From a bacterium (GTDB lineage: Bacteria; JAMOTN01), in assembly GCA_027062325.1 (NCBI GenBank), contig JAMOTN010000014.1:1-52479 (forward strand): a DNA stretch of 52,479 nucleotides, in the 5' to 3' direction. The notes below the pieces were generated by a model. It ran no database searches. It had not been told where the DNA came from and was given only the letters and a program-made list of their open reading frames with translations. Positions 4,722 through 13,504 of the stretch are shown piece by piece. How positions within the stretch are numbered: the first letter of the stretch is position 1; each line of letters begins with the position of its first letter. A program made the position numbers and the translations under genes.

Positions 4722-4809
4722 GTGTTATCCCCCCTCATAGCTATCAATCGGCTGTAAGAGAAAATTTTTGAATGCTATCATTGAAATGAAAAGATGGTAG
4801 GTGAATCAC

Positions 4810-5343
4810 ATGAGAAGAGAAACTGCAGCGCATCCTGAAGAGATGGTCGAAAGGTTATTTTCAAAACTTCACTCTGAAGTTGCTCTAATGTGGCAGGAAA
4901 AGAATCTCGACAAAAAGCTTGAATACGTGCTAAAAAAGCTCGTTTCAATTCCTCAAGTGGCCGCAATAATCCTGTTCGGCTCAGTTGCAAGAGGTAAAGC
5001 TATTCCTACCTCAGACATCGATTTAGCTGTTCTCTTAAGTGAAGATGTGGAATTTGGAGAACTTAAAAAACTTGAAGTAGAAGTAGGAAGTCTTGCTGAC
5101 AATGACATAGATCTGGCTTTGCTTCACAAACTCCCTTATTACATTCAAAGAAGTGTCTTCGAAGAAGGGATAGTCGTATTTTTAAGAGATGAAAGAGCAG
5201 ATAAAATTCTCAAAAATGCCCTTTTTCACGCAATAAAAGGCTATATTGAAAATGAGAGAATGTATAAAATGGTGGCGCGTAGTTTGAGAAAAAAACTGAT
5301 GGCAGAAGGGAGAGTGGGAGAAGATAAGAAATGGAGAAGATGA
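4810..5343 (+). CDS. mntA: MNT-type nucleotidyltransferase, antitoxin of HEPN/MNT pair
   Basis: A 177-residue protein with a minimal nucleotidyltransferase domain in its middle: LFGSVARGK (Gly57, Ser58), then DID (Asp69, Asp71) and a third acidic position DIDLAL (Asp101), the full GSx10DxD plus D catalytic set. In characterised type VII systems MntA transfers AMP to a tyrosine of the partner HEPN toxin and so silences it. ATG 4810 is preferred over the GTG at 4801 because TAGGTG ends 6 bases before it. Unusually there are about 50 extra helical residues before the domain and a basic C-terminal tail. The HEPN partner follows after 26 bases. Symbol by family resemblance. Confidence 0.85.
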   Translation: MRRETAAHPEEMVERLFSKLHSEVALMWQEKNLDKKLEYVLKKLVSIPQVAAIILFGSVARGKAIPTSDIDLAVLLSEDVEFGELKKLEVEVGSLADNDIDLALLHKLPYYIQRSVFEEGIVVFLRDERADKILKNALFHAIKGYIENERMYKMVARSLRKKLMAEGRVGEDKKWRR

Positions 5344-5369
5344 AAGGTTAAAAGGAGGTAATTGGAGAT

Positions 5370-5765
5370 ATGAGACTATACTCACAAGCGATAAGATTTT
5401 GGACGCACTTTAATCAAATAAAAAAATTGCTCAATGGCAATCTTGATGACTACTACGTTGCAACAGCTTTAGCGATGGAGTGTTTTCAAGCTGCAAATTC
5501 TCTCATCGATATTGCTACAAAACTCGTATCCGAAAATTCCCTGGGCTTTCCGCAAAACGCTGTAAACGCCTTTGAACTTCTCATGAAACACGGCCTAATC
5601 GAGAAGGAAGAGTTAGAAGCAGCAAAGCGAGCAATTTACTTGAGAAATCTTATCGCTCATGAATACCACGCAATTGAAAAGGAGGACTTGTTGGACTTAT
5701 ACAATGCCCTTGAAAGTTTACAAGCTTTTGTGAGGAGAGCTGAGATTAAAAATGGGGAAAGTTAA
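5370..5765 (+). CDS. hepT: HEPN-domain protein, HepT-like toxin
   Basis: A 131-residue all-helical protein carrying the RNase motif RNLIAHEYH, an exact Rx4HxY with Arg92, His97 and Tyr99. HEPN proteins of this type form dimers whose paired motifs make an RNase site, and the motif-associated tyrosine is the AMPylation target of MntA in studied systems. AAAGGAGGT lies 10 bases before the ATG. Together with the upstream nucleotidyltransferase it makes a complete type VII toxin-antitoxin pair. Toxicity here is inferred; some HEPN/MNT pairs act in phage defence or have no proven toxicity. Confidence 0.87.
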   Translation: MRLYSQAIRFWTHFNQIKKLLNGNLDDYYVATALAMECFQAANSLIDIATKLVSENSLGFPQNAVNAFELLMKHGLIEKEELEAAKRAIYLRNLIAHEYHAIEKEDLLDLYNALESLQAFVRRAEIKNGES

Positions 5766-5891
5766 GGCTGAAATGGAGTAGTTTGCGAAGATGGTTAATT
5801 ATCGGTTAATTTGCTATATTACTATTTGGAAGACACAGTTGGTGTAGGGGATTTGAAAATAACCTCATATTTTGGCAAAGGAGGGATAGAG

Positions 5892-7226
5892 ATGAATCGC
5901 AAAAAGGTGGTGATTTTGGGCGCAGCAGGACGTGATTTTCACAATTTCAACGTATTTTTCAGAGATAATGAAGAGTGGGAAGTGGTAGCTTTCACAGCTA
6001 CTCAAATTCCTGACATTGATGGAAGAAAATATCCTGCTGAGCTTGCTGGCAAGCTTTATCCAGAGGGCATTCCTATCATTTCCGAGGATGAGCTTGAAAA
6101 AATAATCAAGGAAAAGAGCGTTGATTTTGCAGTATTCGCTTACAGCGACGTAGCACACGAACATGTGATGCACCTTGCAAGCCGTGCAATGAAGGCTGGC
6201 GCATCCTTCATGCTCCTGGGTCCAGAGCACACCATGCTCAAATCCTCAAAGCCGGTCATATCAATCTGTGCAGTCAGAACCGGTTGCGGTAAGAGTCAAA
6301 CTACAAGGCGTGTAGCAGAGCTTTTGACTAAAGCCGGCTTAAAGGTTGGAATTGTAAGGCACCCAATGCCTTATGGAGATTTGGTAGCTCAGCGTGTTCA
6401 GAGGTTCGCAAGTTATGAGGATCTTGATAAACACAACTGCACAATTGAGGAGAGAGAGGAATACGAACCGCACATTGATCGTGGTAATGTTGTGTACGCA
6501 GGTGTTGACTACGAAGCAATATTGCGTGAAGTTGAAAAGGAAGCAGATGTAGTAATATGGGATGGAGGAAACAATGACTTCCCATTCTTCAAGTCGGATC
6601 TTGAAATTGTCGTAGTAGATCCACATAGGCCAGGCCACGAGCTTGCCTACTTCCCCGGCGAGGTGAACTTTAGAAGAGCAGATGTTATCGTGATAAACAA
6701 GATCGACTCTGCATATCCAGAAGGAATTGAAGAGGTGCGCGAAAACATTTACGCGGTTAATCCTCAGGCTGTAGTCGTAGAAGCAGCAAGTCCTCTATTT
6801 GTAGATGAGCCGGAAAAGATCAAGGGCAAGCGTGTCGTAGTGGTTGAAGACGGTCCAACGGTAACTCATGGAGAGATGCCTTATGGGGCAGGATATGTTG
6901 CAGCACTCAAATACGGAGCAGCAGAAATTGTTGATCCAACTTCTCATCTTGTTGACACGATAGCTGAAACTTTTGAGAAATATCCCCATCTTTCAAATAT
7001 TATCCCAGCAATGGGCTACTCTCCAAAGCAAGTTGCAGACCTTGAGGCAACTCTTAATGCCGTCGATGCAGATGTAATAGTCAGTGCAACACCAATTGAT
7101 ATAAGGCGCGTTGCAAAAAACTTGAATAAACCGGTTGTTCGCGTAAGATACGAACTTCAGGAGATCGGCACTCCGAATCTTGAAGGAGTAATTGAAGAGT
7201 TTATAAAAGAAAAGATTAGAAAGTAA
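5892..7226 (+). CDS. COG2403 GTPase, cyclic 2,3-diphosphoglycerate synthetase-like
   Basis: A 444-residue protein with two joined parts: an N-terminal Rossmann-like region starting VVILGAAGRDFHNFN, and a P-loop domain with VRTGCGKSQTTR (Gly131-Ser135), DGGNNDFPFF and the guanine-type NKID motif. It matches the COG2403 family, whose archaeal members make cyclic 2,3-diphosphoglycerate; bacterial members are mostly untested. The start is ATG 5892 (AAAGGAGGG 6 bases upstream); the frame is open further back but without a ribosome site. The next genes are carbamate kinase and ornithine carbamoyltransferase, and my recollection is that such neighbours recur for this family. A link to carbamoyl-phosphate or arginine/purine breakdown is inference. 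Confidence 0.85.
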   Translation: MNRKKVVILGAAGRDFHNFNVFFRDNEEWEVVAFTATQIPDIDGRKYPAELAGKLYPEGIPIISEDELEKIIKEKSVDFAVFAYSDVAHEHVMHLASRAMKAGASFMLLGPEHTMLKSSKPVISICAVRTGCGKSQTTRRVAELLTKAGLKVGIVRHPMPYGDLVAQRVQRFASYEDLDKHNCTIEEREEYEPHIDRGNVVYAGVDYEAILREVEKEADVVIWDGGNNDFPFFKSDLEIVVVDPHRPGHELAYFPGEVNFRRADVIVINKIDSAYPEGIEEVRENIYAVNPQAVVVEAASPLFVDEPEKIKGKRVVVVEDGPTVTHGEMPYGAGYVAALKYGAAEIVDPTSHLVDTIAETFEKYPHLSNIIPAMGYSPKQVADLEATLNAVDADVIVSATPIDIRRVAKNLNKPVVRVRYELQEIGTPNLEGVIEEFIKEKIRK

Positions 7227-7405: not shown

Positions 7406-8350
7406 GTGTCTGGAACCAACAGCAAAAAGGTCGTAGTAGCTCTCGGAGGTAACGCTTTTCAAAATTCAAAGGAAGATAATTACTTTGTGCAACTTAGAAA
7501 AGCAGAAGAGACAGGAAAAATCATTGCTCAGCTTTCTAAAGAAGCAGATGTCATCGTAACACATGGAAACGGACCTCAAGTTGGTGAAGCGTTGTTGCGT
7601 GTTGCAGCAGCTGAAAAGGATGGAATAGATCCAATTCCACTTCATGCATGTGTTGCCAACACTCAGGCACGAATTGGTTTCTCACTTGAGCGGGGAATTA
7701 GACTTGCTCTTAAAAAAGAGGGCATTGAAAAGGAAGTTGCATGTGTCATCACTCAGGTTATCGTCGATGAAAACGACCCAGCGTTTTCCAATCCAAGCAA
7801 ACCAATAGGTCCTTTCATGACAAAAGAAGAGGCAGAGAAAAAAGCAGCAGAGGAAGGTTGGTCGGTAGTTGAAGACGCAGGGCGCGGCTGGAGGCGAGTG
7901 GTTCCGTCCCCTAAGCCACTTAAAGTGGTCGAGCTTCCCGTTATAAAGAAGTTGCTTGAAGAGAAAACAGTAGTTATAGCAGCAGGTGGCGGTGGAATCC
8001 CCGTCAGAGAAAGTGATCTATCAGGACTTGAAGCTGTAATTGATAAAGATTTGGCATCAAGTTTGCTGGCTAGAAATATTGGTGCAGACATGCTCATAAT
8101 TGCAACGGCTGTTGAGAAAGTGTGCCTCAACTTTGGAAAACCCAATGAGAAAAAGCTAGATCGAGTAAGTGTAAAGGAGTTAAAAAAGTATGCTGAAGAA
8201 GGACATTTTAAACCAGGTAGTATGCTTCCCAAAGTTCAGGCTTGTATAGAGTTTGTTGAAGCAACGGGTAATATAGCAGTCATCACCCACCTCAATAAGC
8301 TTGCAGGAGCTGTGGGAAATCCAGAGATTGGCACAGTAATTGTCCCCTAG
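7406..8350 (+). CDS. arcC: Carbamate kinase
   Basis: Carbamate kinase interconverts carbamoyl phosphate plus ADP and carbamate plus ATP; in fermenters it yields ATP from citrulline. The 314-residue protein has the amino-acid kinase motifs VALGGNA (residues 11-17), THGNGPQVG, AAGGGGIPV and DKDLASSLLA, and full family length. Translation starts at GTG 7406, set by AAGGAGGG 6 bases upstream; an overlapping ATG at 7404 is out of frame. Ornithine carbamoyltransferase follows after about 30 bases with its own strong ribosome site. Arginine deiminase is absent from the window. Confidence 0.95.
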   Translation: MSGTNSKKVVVALGGNAFQNSKEDNYFVQLRKAEETGKIIAQLSKEADVIVTHGNGPQVGEALLRVAAAEKDGIDPIPLHACVANTQARIGFSLERGIRLALKKEGIEKEVACVITQVIVDENDPAFSNPSKPIGPFMTKEEAEKKAAEEGWSVVEDAGRGWRRVVPSPKPLKVVELPVIKKLLEEKTVVIAAGGGGIPVRESDLSGLEAVIDKDLASSLLARNIGADMLIIATAVEKVCLNFGKPNEKKLDRVSVKELKKYAEEGHFKPGSMLPKVQACIEFVEATGNIAVITHLNKLAGAVGNPEIGTVIVP

Positions 8351-8383
8351 TTATAAAATTACACTGTTAAAGGAGGGATATTT

Positions 8384-9325
8384 ATGGCTGTAAACATGAA
8401 AGGAAGAGATTTCTTAAGCATCATGGACATAACTCTTGAGGAGATGGAGGCAATATTTGACTTGACAAGGCGTCTGAAACAGGAGCGTCTTGCAGGAATA
8501 AGGCACGATCACATTTTAGCAGGTAGAAAGTTGGCGATGATTTTTGAGAAGCCATCTACCAGAACGCGCGTATCGTTTGAAGTTGGAGCATATGAGCTGG
8601 GGATGTATCCGTTATACCTTTCTGCACGCGACTTGCAACTTGGAAGGGGTGAAACAATTGGAGACACCGCTCGTGTTCTTGAAAGATACGTTGACGGAAT
8701 AATGGCCCGTGTTTTCGAACATGAGAAGCTTGTAGAACTAGCAAACAACGCAGAAATTCCAGTCATAAATGGGCTTTCTGACACTTTCCATCCATGCCAA
8801 ATAATGGCGGATCTTTACACAGTCTTGGAGAAGAAAGGACGTCTTACAGGCCTTAATATGGTATTTGTTGGAGACGGTGCAAACAATATAGCGCACTCTC
8901 TGCTTGTTGGATGCACAAAGGTTGGAATGAATATAACAATTGCAACTCCTGAAGGCTATGACCCCGATGCAAAAATAGTTGAGTATGCTAAAGGACAAGC
9001 TGCTCGTATGCACTGTGAAGTAAAAATTGCACGCGATCCTTATGAAGCAGTGAAAGATGCAGACGTTATTTATACTGATGTATGGGTAAGCATGGGAGAT
9101 GAAGCAGAAGCAGAAAAGAGAAAGAGAGACTTCGCAAACTACCAAGTGAACACAAAGCTGCTTTCCGAAGCAAAAGAGGATGTAATTGTTCTTCATTGTC
9201 TTCCTGCACATCGCGGAGAAGAGATAACCGATGAAGTCATGGATGGTCCACATTCTGTGGTATTTGATGAAGCAGAGAATAGATTACACGTTCAAAAAGC
9301 AATAATGGCAATGCTTATAAGATAG
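8384..9325 (+). CDS. argF: Ornithine carbamoyltransferase
   Basis: The enzyme joins ornithine and carbamoyl phosphate to give citrulline, or runs backwards with carbamate kinase. Its 313 residues contain the carbamoyl-phosphate site STRTR (58-62), HPCQIMADL, the ornithine loop SMG (236-238) and HCLP (271-274), so it is an OTC rather than aspartate carbamoyltransferase. AGGAGGG precedes the ATG. Sequence alone does not separate biosynthetic ArgF from catabolic ArcB; lying directly after carbamate kinase favours a catabolic or ATP-yielding role. No arginine repressor site was recognised. Confidence 0.94.
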   Translation: MAVNMKGRDFLSIMDITLEEMEAIFDLTRRLKQERLAGIRHDHILAGRKLAMIFEKPSTRTRVSFEVGAYELGMYPLYLSARDLQLGRGETIGDTARVLERYVDGIMARVFEHEKLVELANNAEIPVINGLSDTFHPCQIMADLYTVLEKKGRLTGLNMVFVGDGANNIAHSLLVGCTKVGMNITIATPEGYDPDAKIVEYAKGQAARMHCEVKIARDPYEAVKDADVIYTDVWVSMGDEAEAEKRKRDFANYQVNTKLLSEAKEDVIVLHCLPAHRGEEITDEVMDGPHSVVFDEAENRLHVQKAIMAMLIR

Positions 9326-9367: not shown

Positions 9368-10366
9368 ATGAAAGTTGTATTTAAAAATTTTGTAAGAAGG
9401 GTGTGCCTTCCCCCCATTTTCTTCATTTTCATCATCGCTTTCACATTTATTTTTCTGGAAATTCCAGTGCACGCTTCAACTCTATTTGATAAAGCTCAAA
9501 AATTTGAAGAAGCCGGTAATTTACAGCAAGCGCTCAAGTACTACTTGATGGATGCAGATGCAACTAGAAATTTGGAGGCTGCAAAAAGAGCTGCTGTTTT
9601 GCTTCACAAATTTGGGCGTGATAACGAGGCAATAGCTCTAGCAAGGAAGTTTTCCACTGCCCGCGACACTCTTGAAGAGACAGCTATTGCTGAAAATAAT
9701 CTTACCTTCCTAAAGAAGCTTGATAACACGATTGGTTTATCAGAAGCTGGTCGTCAAGCTCTTAAGCAGCTTGAAATTGAGGAAGAGCACAGGGAAGTGA
9801 TAAAAAATTTAAAGGGTGTTGAGAAACTTTGGCGAAAACGCAACTTTCTCGACACAATTGCAATTCTAACTAAAGAAGCAAAAAACGCAAAGTTTGAAAA
9901 TAACTCTGAGATTCTGCACGAAGCTCTAGTGGTTAACTTCGTGCTTCTGAACTTCTGGGATAACGTTTTAAATGAAAAGGAAAACGTAAGAGACGAAAAT
10001 TTCTTGAAGATGCTAGATATGGTACAAGAGCTATACGATGGGCATAGTAAATTTCAACCTAAAAAATTCTTTGAACTCGCTGAGAAGCTCGAGTGGTCGA
10101 TGCCTGTGAGGTGGCTTACCAACTATGTAATTAAGCTATTGTTCAGCAAAGGAGATCTAGATAATCTCATCGAACTCTTGAATGCATCTCTTAAAACTTC
10201 CTACACACCTATTCTTCAAAAGAGCCTTTTAAACCTTGCAATTCTTTATCACAAATTAGGGGATGATGCAAAAGCTGCTCAGTATTTCTACCAGATTACA
10301 CCTGAACTGCTGCCAGAAGATAGCATCGCTGTTTACAATAAGATGAAAAAGATGTTTCCACAGTAG
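9368..10366 (+). CDS. Secreted helical-repeat (TPR-like) protein
   Basis: A 332-residue protein with a signal peptide (basic MKVVFKNFVRR, long hydrophobic core, likely cleavage near VHAS) followed by paired helices of TPR type, clearest in FEEAGNLQQALKYYLMDAD near the start and YHKLGDDAKAAQYFYQITPE near the end. Such proteins scaffold other envelope proteins. The start has GGGGGAGG a few bases upstream. It follows the OTC gene by 42 bases and may be read from the same transcript, though a functional tie is not apparent. The protein belongs to no family I can name. Confidence 0.78.
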   Translation: MKVVFKNFVRRVCLPPIFFIFIIAFTFIFLEIPVHASTLFDKAQKFEEAGNLQQALKYYLMDADATRNLEAAKRAAVLLHKFGRDNEAIALARKFSTARDTLEETAIAENNLTFLKKLDNTIGLSEAGRQALKQLEIEEEHREVIKNLKGVEKLWRKRNFLDTIAILTKEAKNAKFENNSEILHEALVVNFVLLNFWDNVLNEKENVRDENFLKMLDMVQELYDGHSKFQPKKFFELAEKLEWSMPVRWLTNYVIKLLFSKGDLDNLIELLNASLKTSYTPILQKSLLNLAILYHKLGDDAKAAQYFYQITPELLPEDSIAVYNKMKKMFPQ

Positions 10367-10391
10367 GCATAAGTAGCGTCACATTTCATAC

Positions 10392-10458
10392 AATCACCCC
10401 CTCTATAGACAATGAGGCAACATAAAGCCTGTGCAAACTCAAACCGGGGGGGGTGATT
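10392..10458 (+). promoter_or_regulatory. Long inverted repeat masking a ribosome binding site
   Basis: AATCACCCCC (10392-10401) is the exact reverse complement of GGGGGTGATT (10449-10458), and T-G/C-G pairs can lengthen the stem inward by about four. The right arm is the Shine-Dalgarno region of the 34-residue peptide at 10462. Folded RNA would hide the ribosome site. The loop includes a small AGGC/GCCT hairpin. This is the layout of structured, translation-inert mRNAs such as those of type I toxins. Confidence 0.65.
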
Positions 10459-10461
10459 ATT

Positions 10462-10566
10462 ATGAGCTTCATCACAGCCATTATTGTTGAGTTGCTCGAA
10501 ATCTCCATTGGCTTACTTGGAATAGTTATAAGAATCCTTACACTCATAATTTCAATGCTGGTTTAA
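10462..10566 (+). CDS. 34-residue hydrophobic peptide, type I toxin-like
   Basis: An ATG at 10462 opens a 34-codon frame ending TAA at 10564. The peptide starts MSFITAIIVELLEI and continues through GLLGIVIRILTL to a hydrophobic end: one amphipathic or membrane-spanning helix with only two Glu and one Arg. An unusually G-rich ribosome site (10446-10453) lies about 8 bases upstream and is part of the inverted repeat. Size, hydrophobicity and masked translation resemble type I toxins or small membrane regulators; phenol-soluble-modulin-like or bacteriocin peptides are alternatives. No antisense RNA promoter could be confirmed by eye. The gene is short, so its reality rests on the ribosome site and composition. 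Confidence 0.55.
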   Translation: MSFITAIIVELLEISIGLLGIVIRILTLIISMLV

Positions 10567-10600
10567 TAACAAAGTTATAACTAGCTGAAAAATTCAACAC

Positions 10601-10646
10601 AAACAAAAAGCCTGCTGCAGAAGCTTTCTTGCCCCCACAGCAGGCT
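10601..10646 (-). terminator. Rho-independent terminator after the pilin-like gene
   Basis: On the minus strand AGCCTGCTG (10646-10638) pairs perfectly with CAGCAGGCT (10617-10609) around a 20-base loop, then TTTTTGTTT follows. It lies about 40 bases beyond the pilin stop. The same hairpin lies 3' of the small peptide on the plus strand, but without a T run there. Confidence 0.85.
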
Positions 10647-10688
10647 GGATAAAGTAGTAAGCTACAATTCACATTTAAGCTTTAAAGA

Positions 10689-11243
10689 TTACTGTATAGT
10701 GTCCCATATACTTCTAAGAGTAGCTCCGCCAACCAATTGTGCTCTTATTCCACCATCTCTTCCTTCGGTATCAGTAGCATAATTATTAGTATTCCAACCC
10801 AAATCGAATTTTATCTTATCATCTTCACTCCAGCTTGCTTTTGCAACTAACATGACAAAGTATTTAGTTGCTCCACTCTTTGTTGGAAACTTGACAGCCT
10901 CCGGAGTAAGGTATCCCTTCCTGACAAGAACCTTCAAGAAAGCAGTATCCGAAGAATTCCAAGCACCAGGTTTAACCTCTTCAGAAGAACCACTGTAATC
11001 TCCATCACTATTCCAATCCACTTTCCAATCAGTTGTTCCATTTGTCTCACAAGGATACTTCCACTCAACCAATCTTACTGCTGTCATAATCATACCGTAG
11101 TTTGAAGCAAATGTAGAAAATCTTGCATCCTCAATTGCACTCTGCCCTTTACTGAAAATGTTTGGAGCAACAACTGCTACCAACACCACCAAAATAGCGA
11201 TAACAAGCAACAATTCAAGAAGTGTAAAACCTCTCCTCCTCAT
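10689..11243 (-). CDS. Type IV pilin-like protein
   Basis: A 184-residue prepilin: MRRRG then FTLLELLLVIAILVVLVAVV, the classic class III signal with cleavage after Gly5, Phe at +1 and Glu at +5. The remainder is a soluble head of about 150 residues with two Cys-poor, aromatic-rich segments and no strong match I recognise. ATG 11243 is chosen because GGAGGTG lies 6 bases upstream; the frame is open for five more codons without a better site. It stands alone on the minus strand among plus-strand genes and has its own terminator. It could be a major or minor pilin, or a pseudopilin of a secretion system; the window holds no assembly ATPase. Confidence 0.88.
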   Translation of the reverse strand: MRRRGFTLLELLLVIAILVVLVAVVAPNIFSKGQSAIEDARFSTFASNYGMIMTAVRLVEWKYPCETNGTTDWKVDWNSDGDYSGSSEEVKPGAWNSSDTAFLKVLVRKGYLTPEAVKFPTKSGATKYFVMLVAKASWSEDDKIKFDLGWNTNNYATDTEGRDGGIRAQLVGGATLRSIWDTIQ

Positions 11244-11408
11244 ACAACACACCTCCATTCTGGATTTTAATTTATTTTCCTCCCATTAATTCTTCAAATC
11301 AATTATTTAATTAGCTTACCTACCTTATTTTTTATTATAACACAATAAAAACCTGCCACCTTCCAAAACATTTTAATTCAGCACTCCTTAGATGCAGCAC
11401 CCCAAACG

Positions 11409-11775: not shown

Positions 11776-12672
11776 ATGAAAGGTAAAGTTGCTAAATTTT
11801 TACGGGAACTCACAGTTGGCCTTGTCGCTGTTTTACTTTTATCATCATCTTCTTTGGCTTTCGAAGTAGAGTTTCCTCAACCTAACATTGTAATCACAGA
11901 CTATCCATTCAAGTTCAAAATCAAGATGAATGATAATGATGTGCCACTCACCGTGAAGATCTACGATAGCAAAGGAAAAATTTTATTCTCAGAAACAGAA
12001 ACCTTCTCTTTTGTCGAGATGCCAATAGGCAACCTTTCCTACCACAAAGACAAATTAATTCTTCACATCACAAATAGGAACGGAAAATCCACTAAAATTC
12101 CTTTCTACTTTCATCCGGATGCCGTAATAAACGCAGACTTAAAAGAAAGATGTGCAACTACCAAAGAAGCATTGAATATAGCTGTTATCAACACAAAAAA
12201 AGCGTATCTAATCACAGAAAATCAGGTTACCTCTTTTAAAGATAAAATTTCCCTACCTCTCAAAATCGGTGTAAACAGAGTTAGCGTAGTAGCATTTGGT
12301 AAAAACGGAAAAGTCAAAACGACGCTTTTCACAATAGTGCGTCTCACTCCTGAAATGATTAAGAAAGCAGGCAATATAAAACGCGGTGCTGTTGAAAACC
12401 TCATAAAAGCTAGGGTGGGAGAGATAATAGTACTTCCTACTTTTACATCGCGCAGCATGTTCCCAGGCTTTATAAGATTTAAAGAGGAGGAAGCACGCGC
12501 AAACTTCGCAGTATTTGAATATCTACCTTTAGACTACACTTATTGCCACGTGTTGATTCCCCAAAAAAGAGGCACCTATACCGTGCAAATATGGGCAAAA
12601 GTGGCAAACCCGTTCTTTGAAACCCGCGGCAAAGACTCTCTTCTTGCTACCGTAAAAATTACAGTTGAGTAG
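11776..12672 (+). CDS. Secreted beta-rich protein, unknown function
   Basis: A 298-residue protein with a cleavable signal peptide (MKGKVAKFLRELTVGLVAVLLL, likely cut after SSLA) followed by alternating short beta strands and polar turns, suggesting two or three Ig-like or beta-sandwich domains. It contains only two cysteines beyond the signal (CATT and TYCHV). The start is ATG 11776, with GAGGTGA just upstream; the frame is open through the rpmB terminator but that part is leader. panB begins about 50 bases after it. I recognise no family. Confidence 0.72.
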   Translation: MKGKVAKFLRELTVGLVAVLLLSSSSLAFEVEFPQPNIVITDYPFKFKIKMNDNDVPLTVKIYDSKGKILFSETETFSFVEMPIGNLSYHKDKLILHITNRNGKSTKIPFYFHPDAVINADLKERCATTKEALNIAVINTKKAYLITENQVTSFKDKISLPLKIGVNRVSVVAFGKNGKVKTTLFTIVRLTPEMIKKAGNIKRGAVENLIKARVGEIIVLPTFTSRSMFPGFIRFKEEEARANFAVFEYLPLDYTYCHVLIPQKRGTYTVQIWAKVANPFFETRGKDSLLATVKITVE

Positions 12673-12724
12673 TCACACTCGCACAAAACCGGTTAACATC
12701 AATTCAAAGAAAGGGGGAAAAATC

Positions 12725-13504
12725 ATGTTTACTCCCCTTGCAAAATCGCTAACTAAAGTCTCGCAGGTATGGGTATCAACTTACGATGCATTAACTGCTA
12801 GAATTTGCGAAGAGGCAGGAGTTGACGTAATTCTAGTTGGAGATTCAGTAGCAAATGTATATCTTGGCTTTAGCTCTACCGTTCAGATTTCACTCGAGGC
12901 AATGAAGATATTTACAGGAGCTGTATCTCGTTCTGTATCCATTCCTGTGGTGGCAGACATTCCGTTTGAGAGCACACACTCTCTCGATTCAATAAAACGC
13001 GCAGCAGTGGGACTCATTAAAGAGGGAGCTAGCGCTGTAAAACTTGAAATTCCATCAAAAGAAGCTGTCGATTGGATAATGTCCGTGGCAGAACTTGGCA
13101 TCGAAGTCGTAGCTCACATTGGACTTACTCCCCAAACCTTTATGAAAATCGGAGGCTATAAGAAGCGTGGCAAAGAAAAAAGCGATGCACAGTATCTAAT
13201 TAAACTTGCAAAGCTTTGTGAAAATGCCGGGGCAAGCTGCCTTGTATTGGAAATGGTCAAGCCAGAAGTTGCCGGCGAAATCACTGAATCCCTTTCTATT
13301 CCAACAATAGGCATAGGCAGTGGCTCAAATACCACAGGACAGGTGTTGGTCTTTGCAGACTTAGTGGGTTTAAATCCTGATGCACCACCTTTCGTAAAAA
13401 AATTTGCTAATTGCTATCAGGAAGCTCTTTCAGGCTGTAAAGCATTTGTGGAAACTGTGAAGGAAGGTAAGGGAGAAGCAAAAGTAACTAAAATAGCCGA
13501 TTAA
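12725..13504 (+). CDS. panB: 3-methyl-2-oxobutanoate hydroxymethyltransferase
   Basis: PanB makes ketopantoate from 2-oxoisovalerate and methylene-tetrahydrofolate, the first committed step to pantothenate and CoA. The 259-residue TIM-barrel protein shows VGDSVANVYLG with the metal ligand Asp40, VVADIPF, a KLE strand, HIGLTPQ and GIGSG near the phosphate-like end. Length is typical. ATG 12725 follows AAGGGGG; earlier in-frame codons lack such a site. panC and panD are not in the window. Its neighbours are unrelated secreted proteins. Confidence 0.95.
   Translation: MFTPLAKSLTKVSQVWVSTYDALTARICEEAGVDVILVGDSVANVYLGFSSTVQISLEAMKIFTGAVSRSVSIPVVADIPFESTHSLDSIKRAAVGLIKEGASAVKLEIPSKEAVDWIMSVAELGIEVVAHIGLTPQTFMKIGGYKKRGKEKSDAQYLIKLAKLCENAGASCLVLEMVKPEVAGEITESLSIPTIGIGSGSNTTGQVLVFADLVGLNPDAPPFVKKFANCYQEALSGCKAFVETVKEGKGEAKVTKIAD

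Follow-up and report, generated by a model that had tools for sequence, protein, structure and literature searches.

A hairpin predicted to bury the ribosome site of a small hydrophobic peptide in a bacterium that looks thermophilic

Results

We analysed a window of 52,479 nucleotides, on the plus strand of which the genes for carbamate kinase, ornithine carbamoyltransferase (OTC) and a TPR-like exported protein are followed by a hairpin and by a short hydrophobic open reading frame (ORF; Table 1). The stop codon of the TPR-like gene lies 18 nt ahead of the start of the hairpin, so a ribosome terminating there would not be expected to melt it; the peptide ORF lies 95 nt past the same gene. On the other side, the strong terminator of the convergent pilin-like gene should end that gene's transcript before it overlaps the peptide in antisense. 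Further upstream on the plus strand, a 471-aa protein (5811-7226) is 63-66% identical to OTC-adjacent proteins in Cryosericum, other Caldiserica and several Clostridia-like MAGs; its Pfam matches are weak and of LpxK/CobW type, and its place beside carbamate kinase and OTC is conserved. At 4801-5765 (plus strand) an MNT-like nucleotidyltransferase gene and then a HepT-like gene form a typical HepT/MNT toxin-antitoxin pair.

Table 1. Positions of the hairpin, the peptide ORF and the surrounding genes in the window
Feature	Position	Strand	Basis or remark
Carbamate kinase and ornithine carbamoyltransferase genes	7406..9325	+	possible head of the transcript entering the peptide ORF; putative co-transcription
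Co-directional gene ahead of the hairpin; signal peptide-like start, orphan apart from weak TPR matches	9368..10366	+	
Outer 5' strand of the hairpin (UUCAUA), partner 10461-10466 including AUG	10385..10390	+	fold
5' arm, anti-Shine-Dalgarno AAUCACCCCCUCU; first 10 nt exact complement of 10449-10458	10392..10404	+	fold, pairing statistics
Lock loop, with small inner hairpin 10415-10418/10427-10430 (AGGC/GCCU)	10405..10445	+	fold
Shine-Dalgarno region GGGGGGGGTGATT with G8 tract	10446..10458	+	duplex with 16S tail
Hydrophobic ORF of 34 residues, of which 2-33 are predicted as a single helix	10462..10566	+	translation, structure prediction
Intrinsic terminator of convergent pilin-like gene (10689-11258, -)	10609..10646	-	

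A preliminary description of this DNA had pointed out that AATCACCCCC (10392-10401) is the exact complement of GGGGGTGATT (10449-10458), within a long inverted repeat that locks a ribosome site. Indeed, the two arms, separated by 47 nt, are 100% complementary at these coordinates, and the stem proved longer than first stated. Folding of 10385-10470 gave a main stem of 13 bp with two G-U pairs (10392-10404 with 10446-10458), which takes in the entire G8 ribosome site, G·U pairs included, and an outer helix of 6 bp (10385-10390 with 10461-10466) that has the AUG inside. The minimum free energy of this fold was -29.9 kcal/mol, against -17.2 (sd 3.1) for shuffles (z -4.07; reached by 0 of 200). 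The wider fold of 10370-10570, a check proposed in the preliminary description, was less extreme (z -1.77; 12 of 200 shuffles), which locates the signal in the hairpin itself. A canonical terminator was ruled out by the loop of 41-47 nt and the lack of a T run. In 327 kb, the G8 tract (10446-10453) ranks with the longest G/C homopolymers, just one further run of 8 being present, at the end of a contig; slippage on the tract could move the Shine-Dalgarno (SD) spacing or the register of the stem.

We compared the strength of the lock with a background of sampled stretches of the same genome (615 kb, including the window). At -27.8 kcal/mol, pairing at this locus was matched by none of 494 genes against their own upstream regions. 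Equally strong pairing with this ribosome site was seen for 21 of 29,473 random genomic 74-mers and for 4 of 5,000 composition-matched shuffles, and the longest exact upstream complement to the start region is 10 nt here versus 9 nt at most in 242 genes. The duplex between the SD and the 16S tail (-18.7 kcal/mol) was stronger than in all 242 genes compared; the tail of this genome, GGATCACCTCCTTT, confirms the SD reading, and the 5' arm resembles it because the 3' arm is the ribosome site complementary to that tail. A search of the same genome for the pattern, over a wide range of gaps, returned this locus and three short-armed places.

G/C-rich SDs easily meet complements by chance. The lock nearest to this one in strength, at -27.4 kcal/mol, belongs to a gene that looks CarD-like by eye (12269-12841, plus strand, of stretch L093), where the partner is an arm of the terminator just upstream and is probably not on the same transcript. 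A lock by itself can, therefore, be incidental. However, the peptide locus tops both the list of locks (494 genes) and that of hydropathy (192 short intergenic ORFs) in the 615 kb, and the coincidence of lock, strongest SD duplex and top hydropathy makes a fortuitous frame unlikely.

The 34-codon hydrophobic frame noted at the outset runs from the ATG at 10462 to a TAA stop at 10564-10566, encodes MSFITAIIVELLEISIGLLGIVIRILTLIISMLV and is present as a single copy in the genome sample. Its mean hydropathy of 2.25 ranks first among the 192 short intergenic ORFs. Intergenic sequence simulated to a length of 4 Mb contained 10,409 ORFs between 30 and 60 aa, of which only 2 reached 2.0 or more. AlphaFold, run on the single sequence, predicted one helix over residues 2-33 with a pLDDT of 97. 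Residues A6, E10, E13, G17, G20, R24, T27 and S31, spaced by 3-4 as in a heptad, form one polar/small strip (shuffle p 0.0002, for a heptad score defined after the sequence was viewed); the hydrophobic moment of the full-length peptide had p 0.019, and that of residues 5-34 p 0.07. By analogy with the charge strip reported for TisB (PMC8309996), we infer that an antiparallel pair centred on G17 would bring E10 opposite R24. These two residues and E13 are the charges of the peptide, giving a net charge of -1, and its C-terminus (...LTLIISMLV) is not cationic. Synonymous codon usage is background-like (log CAI -0.49, against -0.33, sd 0.08, for the genome and -0.49 for background).

To judge what holds the ribosome site closed, we computed the openness of the SD in transcripts with different ends. 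With a start at or before 10392, predicted openness was 0.02-0.03 at 37 °C and 0.08-0.12 at 70 °C. With a start at 10402 it rose to 0.46-0.58 and 0.56-0.64, respectively, for 3' ends from 10470 to 10566, and to 0.45 and 0.46 for a 3' end at 10650; the gene medians are 0.45 and 0.64. Since openness comes near the gene medians once the 5' arm is lost, the 5' arm alone appears to hold the lock. Heat had little predicted effect: in a heating series the openness went from 0.15 at 37 °C through 0.21 at 80 °C to 0.27 at 90 °C, whereas the gene median rose from 0.45 to 0.74.

The sampled genome has a G+C content of ~38%, its 16S G+C is 62%, and the IVYWREL estimate of the growth optimum is ~70 °C; from these values the lineage looks thermophilic, at about 70 °C. 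Its phylum is represented by one genome in the collection searched. No match to the peptide better than E 0.05 was obtained in 386 domain-wide genomes, and none was found in 24 named genomes from the OTC scan or in plasmids or phages; a degenerate pattern of the peptide gave nothing above chance in viral contigs. The preliminary description had recognized no known type I family by eye, and searches agree: the peptide has no match in Pfam, its best E-values in NCBIfam (0.2) and PHROGs (1.7) are far short of the cut-offs, and Rfam returned nothing at gathering scores in the window and nothing at E up to 5 for 10300-10700. There is no homologue in the PDB. The weak peptide matches inspected (L134-L136) lay in other reading contexts and were not similar small genes, and a Sec61-beta match (E 0.0056, short of the cut-off) to the open frame of 46 codons was set aside, as it begins upstream of the ATG. 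Judged by sequence, the peptide is an orphan across the collections searched. The TPR-like gene has no relative found either, and the OTC scan of genome contigs revealed no syntenic locus with the peptide or with its TPR, pilin or L28 neighbours. As a recurring pattern, the inverted repeat occurred in 11 viral contigs, in none of which it precedes a short hydrophobic frame.

We scanned both strands of the locus for promoters and saw promoter-like sites at chance level only, including in the antisense direction. Matches to the locus elsewhere in its own genome, which might have indicated an antisense RNA, were short and scattered.

Discussion

The predictions support well a locked mRNA, in which the ribosome site and the start codon would be buried and would be opened by removal or displacement of the 5' arm. 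We propose, with a probability of roughly 0.45, that the mRNA of this locus is translation-inert, encodes a small membrane-helix peptide and works like locked type I toxin mRNAs such as those for TisB and AapA. Transcripts reading in from the preceding gene, or starting upstream of 10392, would remain silent until the ribosome site is freed by an RNase cut, by a trans RNA or by a start site inside the arm (~10400); the freed peptide would then insert as a single amphipathic helix and may disturb the membrane or a membrane partner. The preliminary description had spoken of a translation-inert toxin mRNA that needs processing or an RNA trigger. Folding and the genome background bear out the inert part, while the toxin part stays a matter of resemblance; removal of the 5' arm does open the site in silico, but no antisense RNA was found. 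A toxin with an RNA antitoxin is the least certain step of this explanation.

The resemblance lies in a short, very hydrophobic peptide, predicted as a single helix with a heptad polar strip. Two traits of type I toxins are seen here: a short hydrophobic product with one predicted transmembrane helix (34 aa, hydropathy 2.25, residues 2-33), and, by prediction, an mRNA kept inert through secondary structure, which is common among such systems and not universal. A third, the cationic C-terminus, is absent; most membrane type I toxins have it, IbsC, ShoB and DinQ being exceptions (PMC8309996). With a common trait of such toxins missing, and with both the antitoxin and the toxicity putative, we liken the locus to a type I toxin mRNA and do not file it as one.

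In E. coli tisB/istR-1, TisB is a 29-aa single-helix membrane peptide with its charged residues on a narrow polar strip (PMC8309996), and the primary tisB mRNA is inactive through a 5' UTR structure that masks a standby site, until activated by processing (PMC8145889). The locus shares with it a short, predicted single-helix peptide with a polar strip and a 5' structure that is predicted to block the mRNA. However, at our locus the SD and AUG are themselves paired, the peptide (net -1) has no sequence match to TisB, and an antisense RNA was not found. In the aapA/IsoA systems of Helicobacter pylori, too, a short membrane peptide (30 aa in AapA1) goes with a sequestered SD: in aapA3, anti-SD motifs in hairpins sequester it and the full-length mRNA is inert until nucleolytic truncation (PMC6733600). 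There, inertness comes from long-distance 5'-3' pairing relieved by 3' trimming, whereas here the 5' arm is predicted to be enough. The toxicity of AapA1 depends on C-terminal K29/R30 (PMC8309996), residues of a kind that our peptide lacks, and the promoter scan gave no IsoA-like antisense promoter. Structure in the 5' UTR also limits translation of the transposase mRNAs of ISPpu9 and IS200 (PMC8450116); that trait is shared, but our locus has no transposase or IS feature and its product is a 34-aa helix.

A non-toxic reading of the same lock deserves attention, though we hold it rather unlikely: the peptide may be a small membrane protein (a subunit or modulator) and the last cistron of the carbamate kinase/OTC/TPR transcript, its level set by the hairpin via an RNA, a protein or an internal start site. 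Its position on the same strand 95 nt past the TPR-like gene, the strong SD, the single helix, the acidic net charge and the lack of an antitoxin signature in the promoter scan all fit. On the other hand, so extreme a lock and such hydropathy would be more typical of peptides that are dangerous if made accidentally, and no conserved partner gene could be demonstrated alongside. The hairpin might also guard against read-through, if a promoter inside or after the 5' arm produced unlocked transcripts and only those from the preceding genes were locked. TACAAT at 10389-10394 would put a start at ~10401, just beyond the arm, transcripts from 10402 are predicted to have an open SD, and the sigma-70 pattern is valid in this genome, where at least one leader carries a full TTGACA-17-TATAAT. 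Yet TACAAT has no fitting -35 at 16-18 nt, and with the scan giving no promoter here and nearby sites at chance level only, we regard this arrangement as improbable.

We give equally little credit to the idea that ORF and hairpin are fortuitous, or act as RNA only (for example, by protecting the 3' end of the upstream transcript). Neutral codon usage, the lack of a homologue and the ease with which G/C-rich SDs find complements, as at the CarD-like gene, speak for it; the rarity of such hydropathy in simulated ORFs, the correct spacing and strength of the SD, and the meeting of ORF, SD and lock in one place speak against. An RNA thermometer that opens on heat is very improbable. Pairing of SD and AUG within a local hairpin is shared with SD-pairing thermometers and is their principle, and the 16S and IVYWREL values point to a thermophile, but the stem is predicted to stay closed across the likely growth range. 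Opening of the SD in that range was not seen in the predictions, and a hairpin predicted to persist beyond 80 °C makes a simple thermometer unlikely.

Returning to the locked toxin-like mRNA, a bolder version of that proposal, which we find doubtful, is that the locus represents a new type I-like toxin family from a single-genome thermophilic phylum, in which a charge-strip helix peptide would be controlled by direct 5' anti-SD pairing that withstands 70 °C and more and yields only to 5'-end removal or a trans RNA. If true, the translation-locked membrane peptides would gain a member of a new sequence family, from a lineage that is deep and heat-loving, and it would show how such a lock can be built to last at high temperature.

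Another structured leader lies in the same window, on the minus strand at ~2461-2580, ahead of the gene at 727-2460. It has no Rfam match. A perfect sigma-70 promoter (TTGACA-17-TATAAT) is followed by the structured leader, GAGGCAACCTGTTGCCCTCC, an arm of which faces the AAGGAGG site; among the gene locks of the sampled 615 kb, this one ranks second in strength (-24.5).
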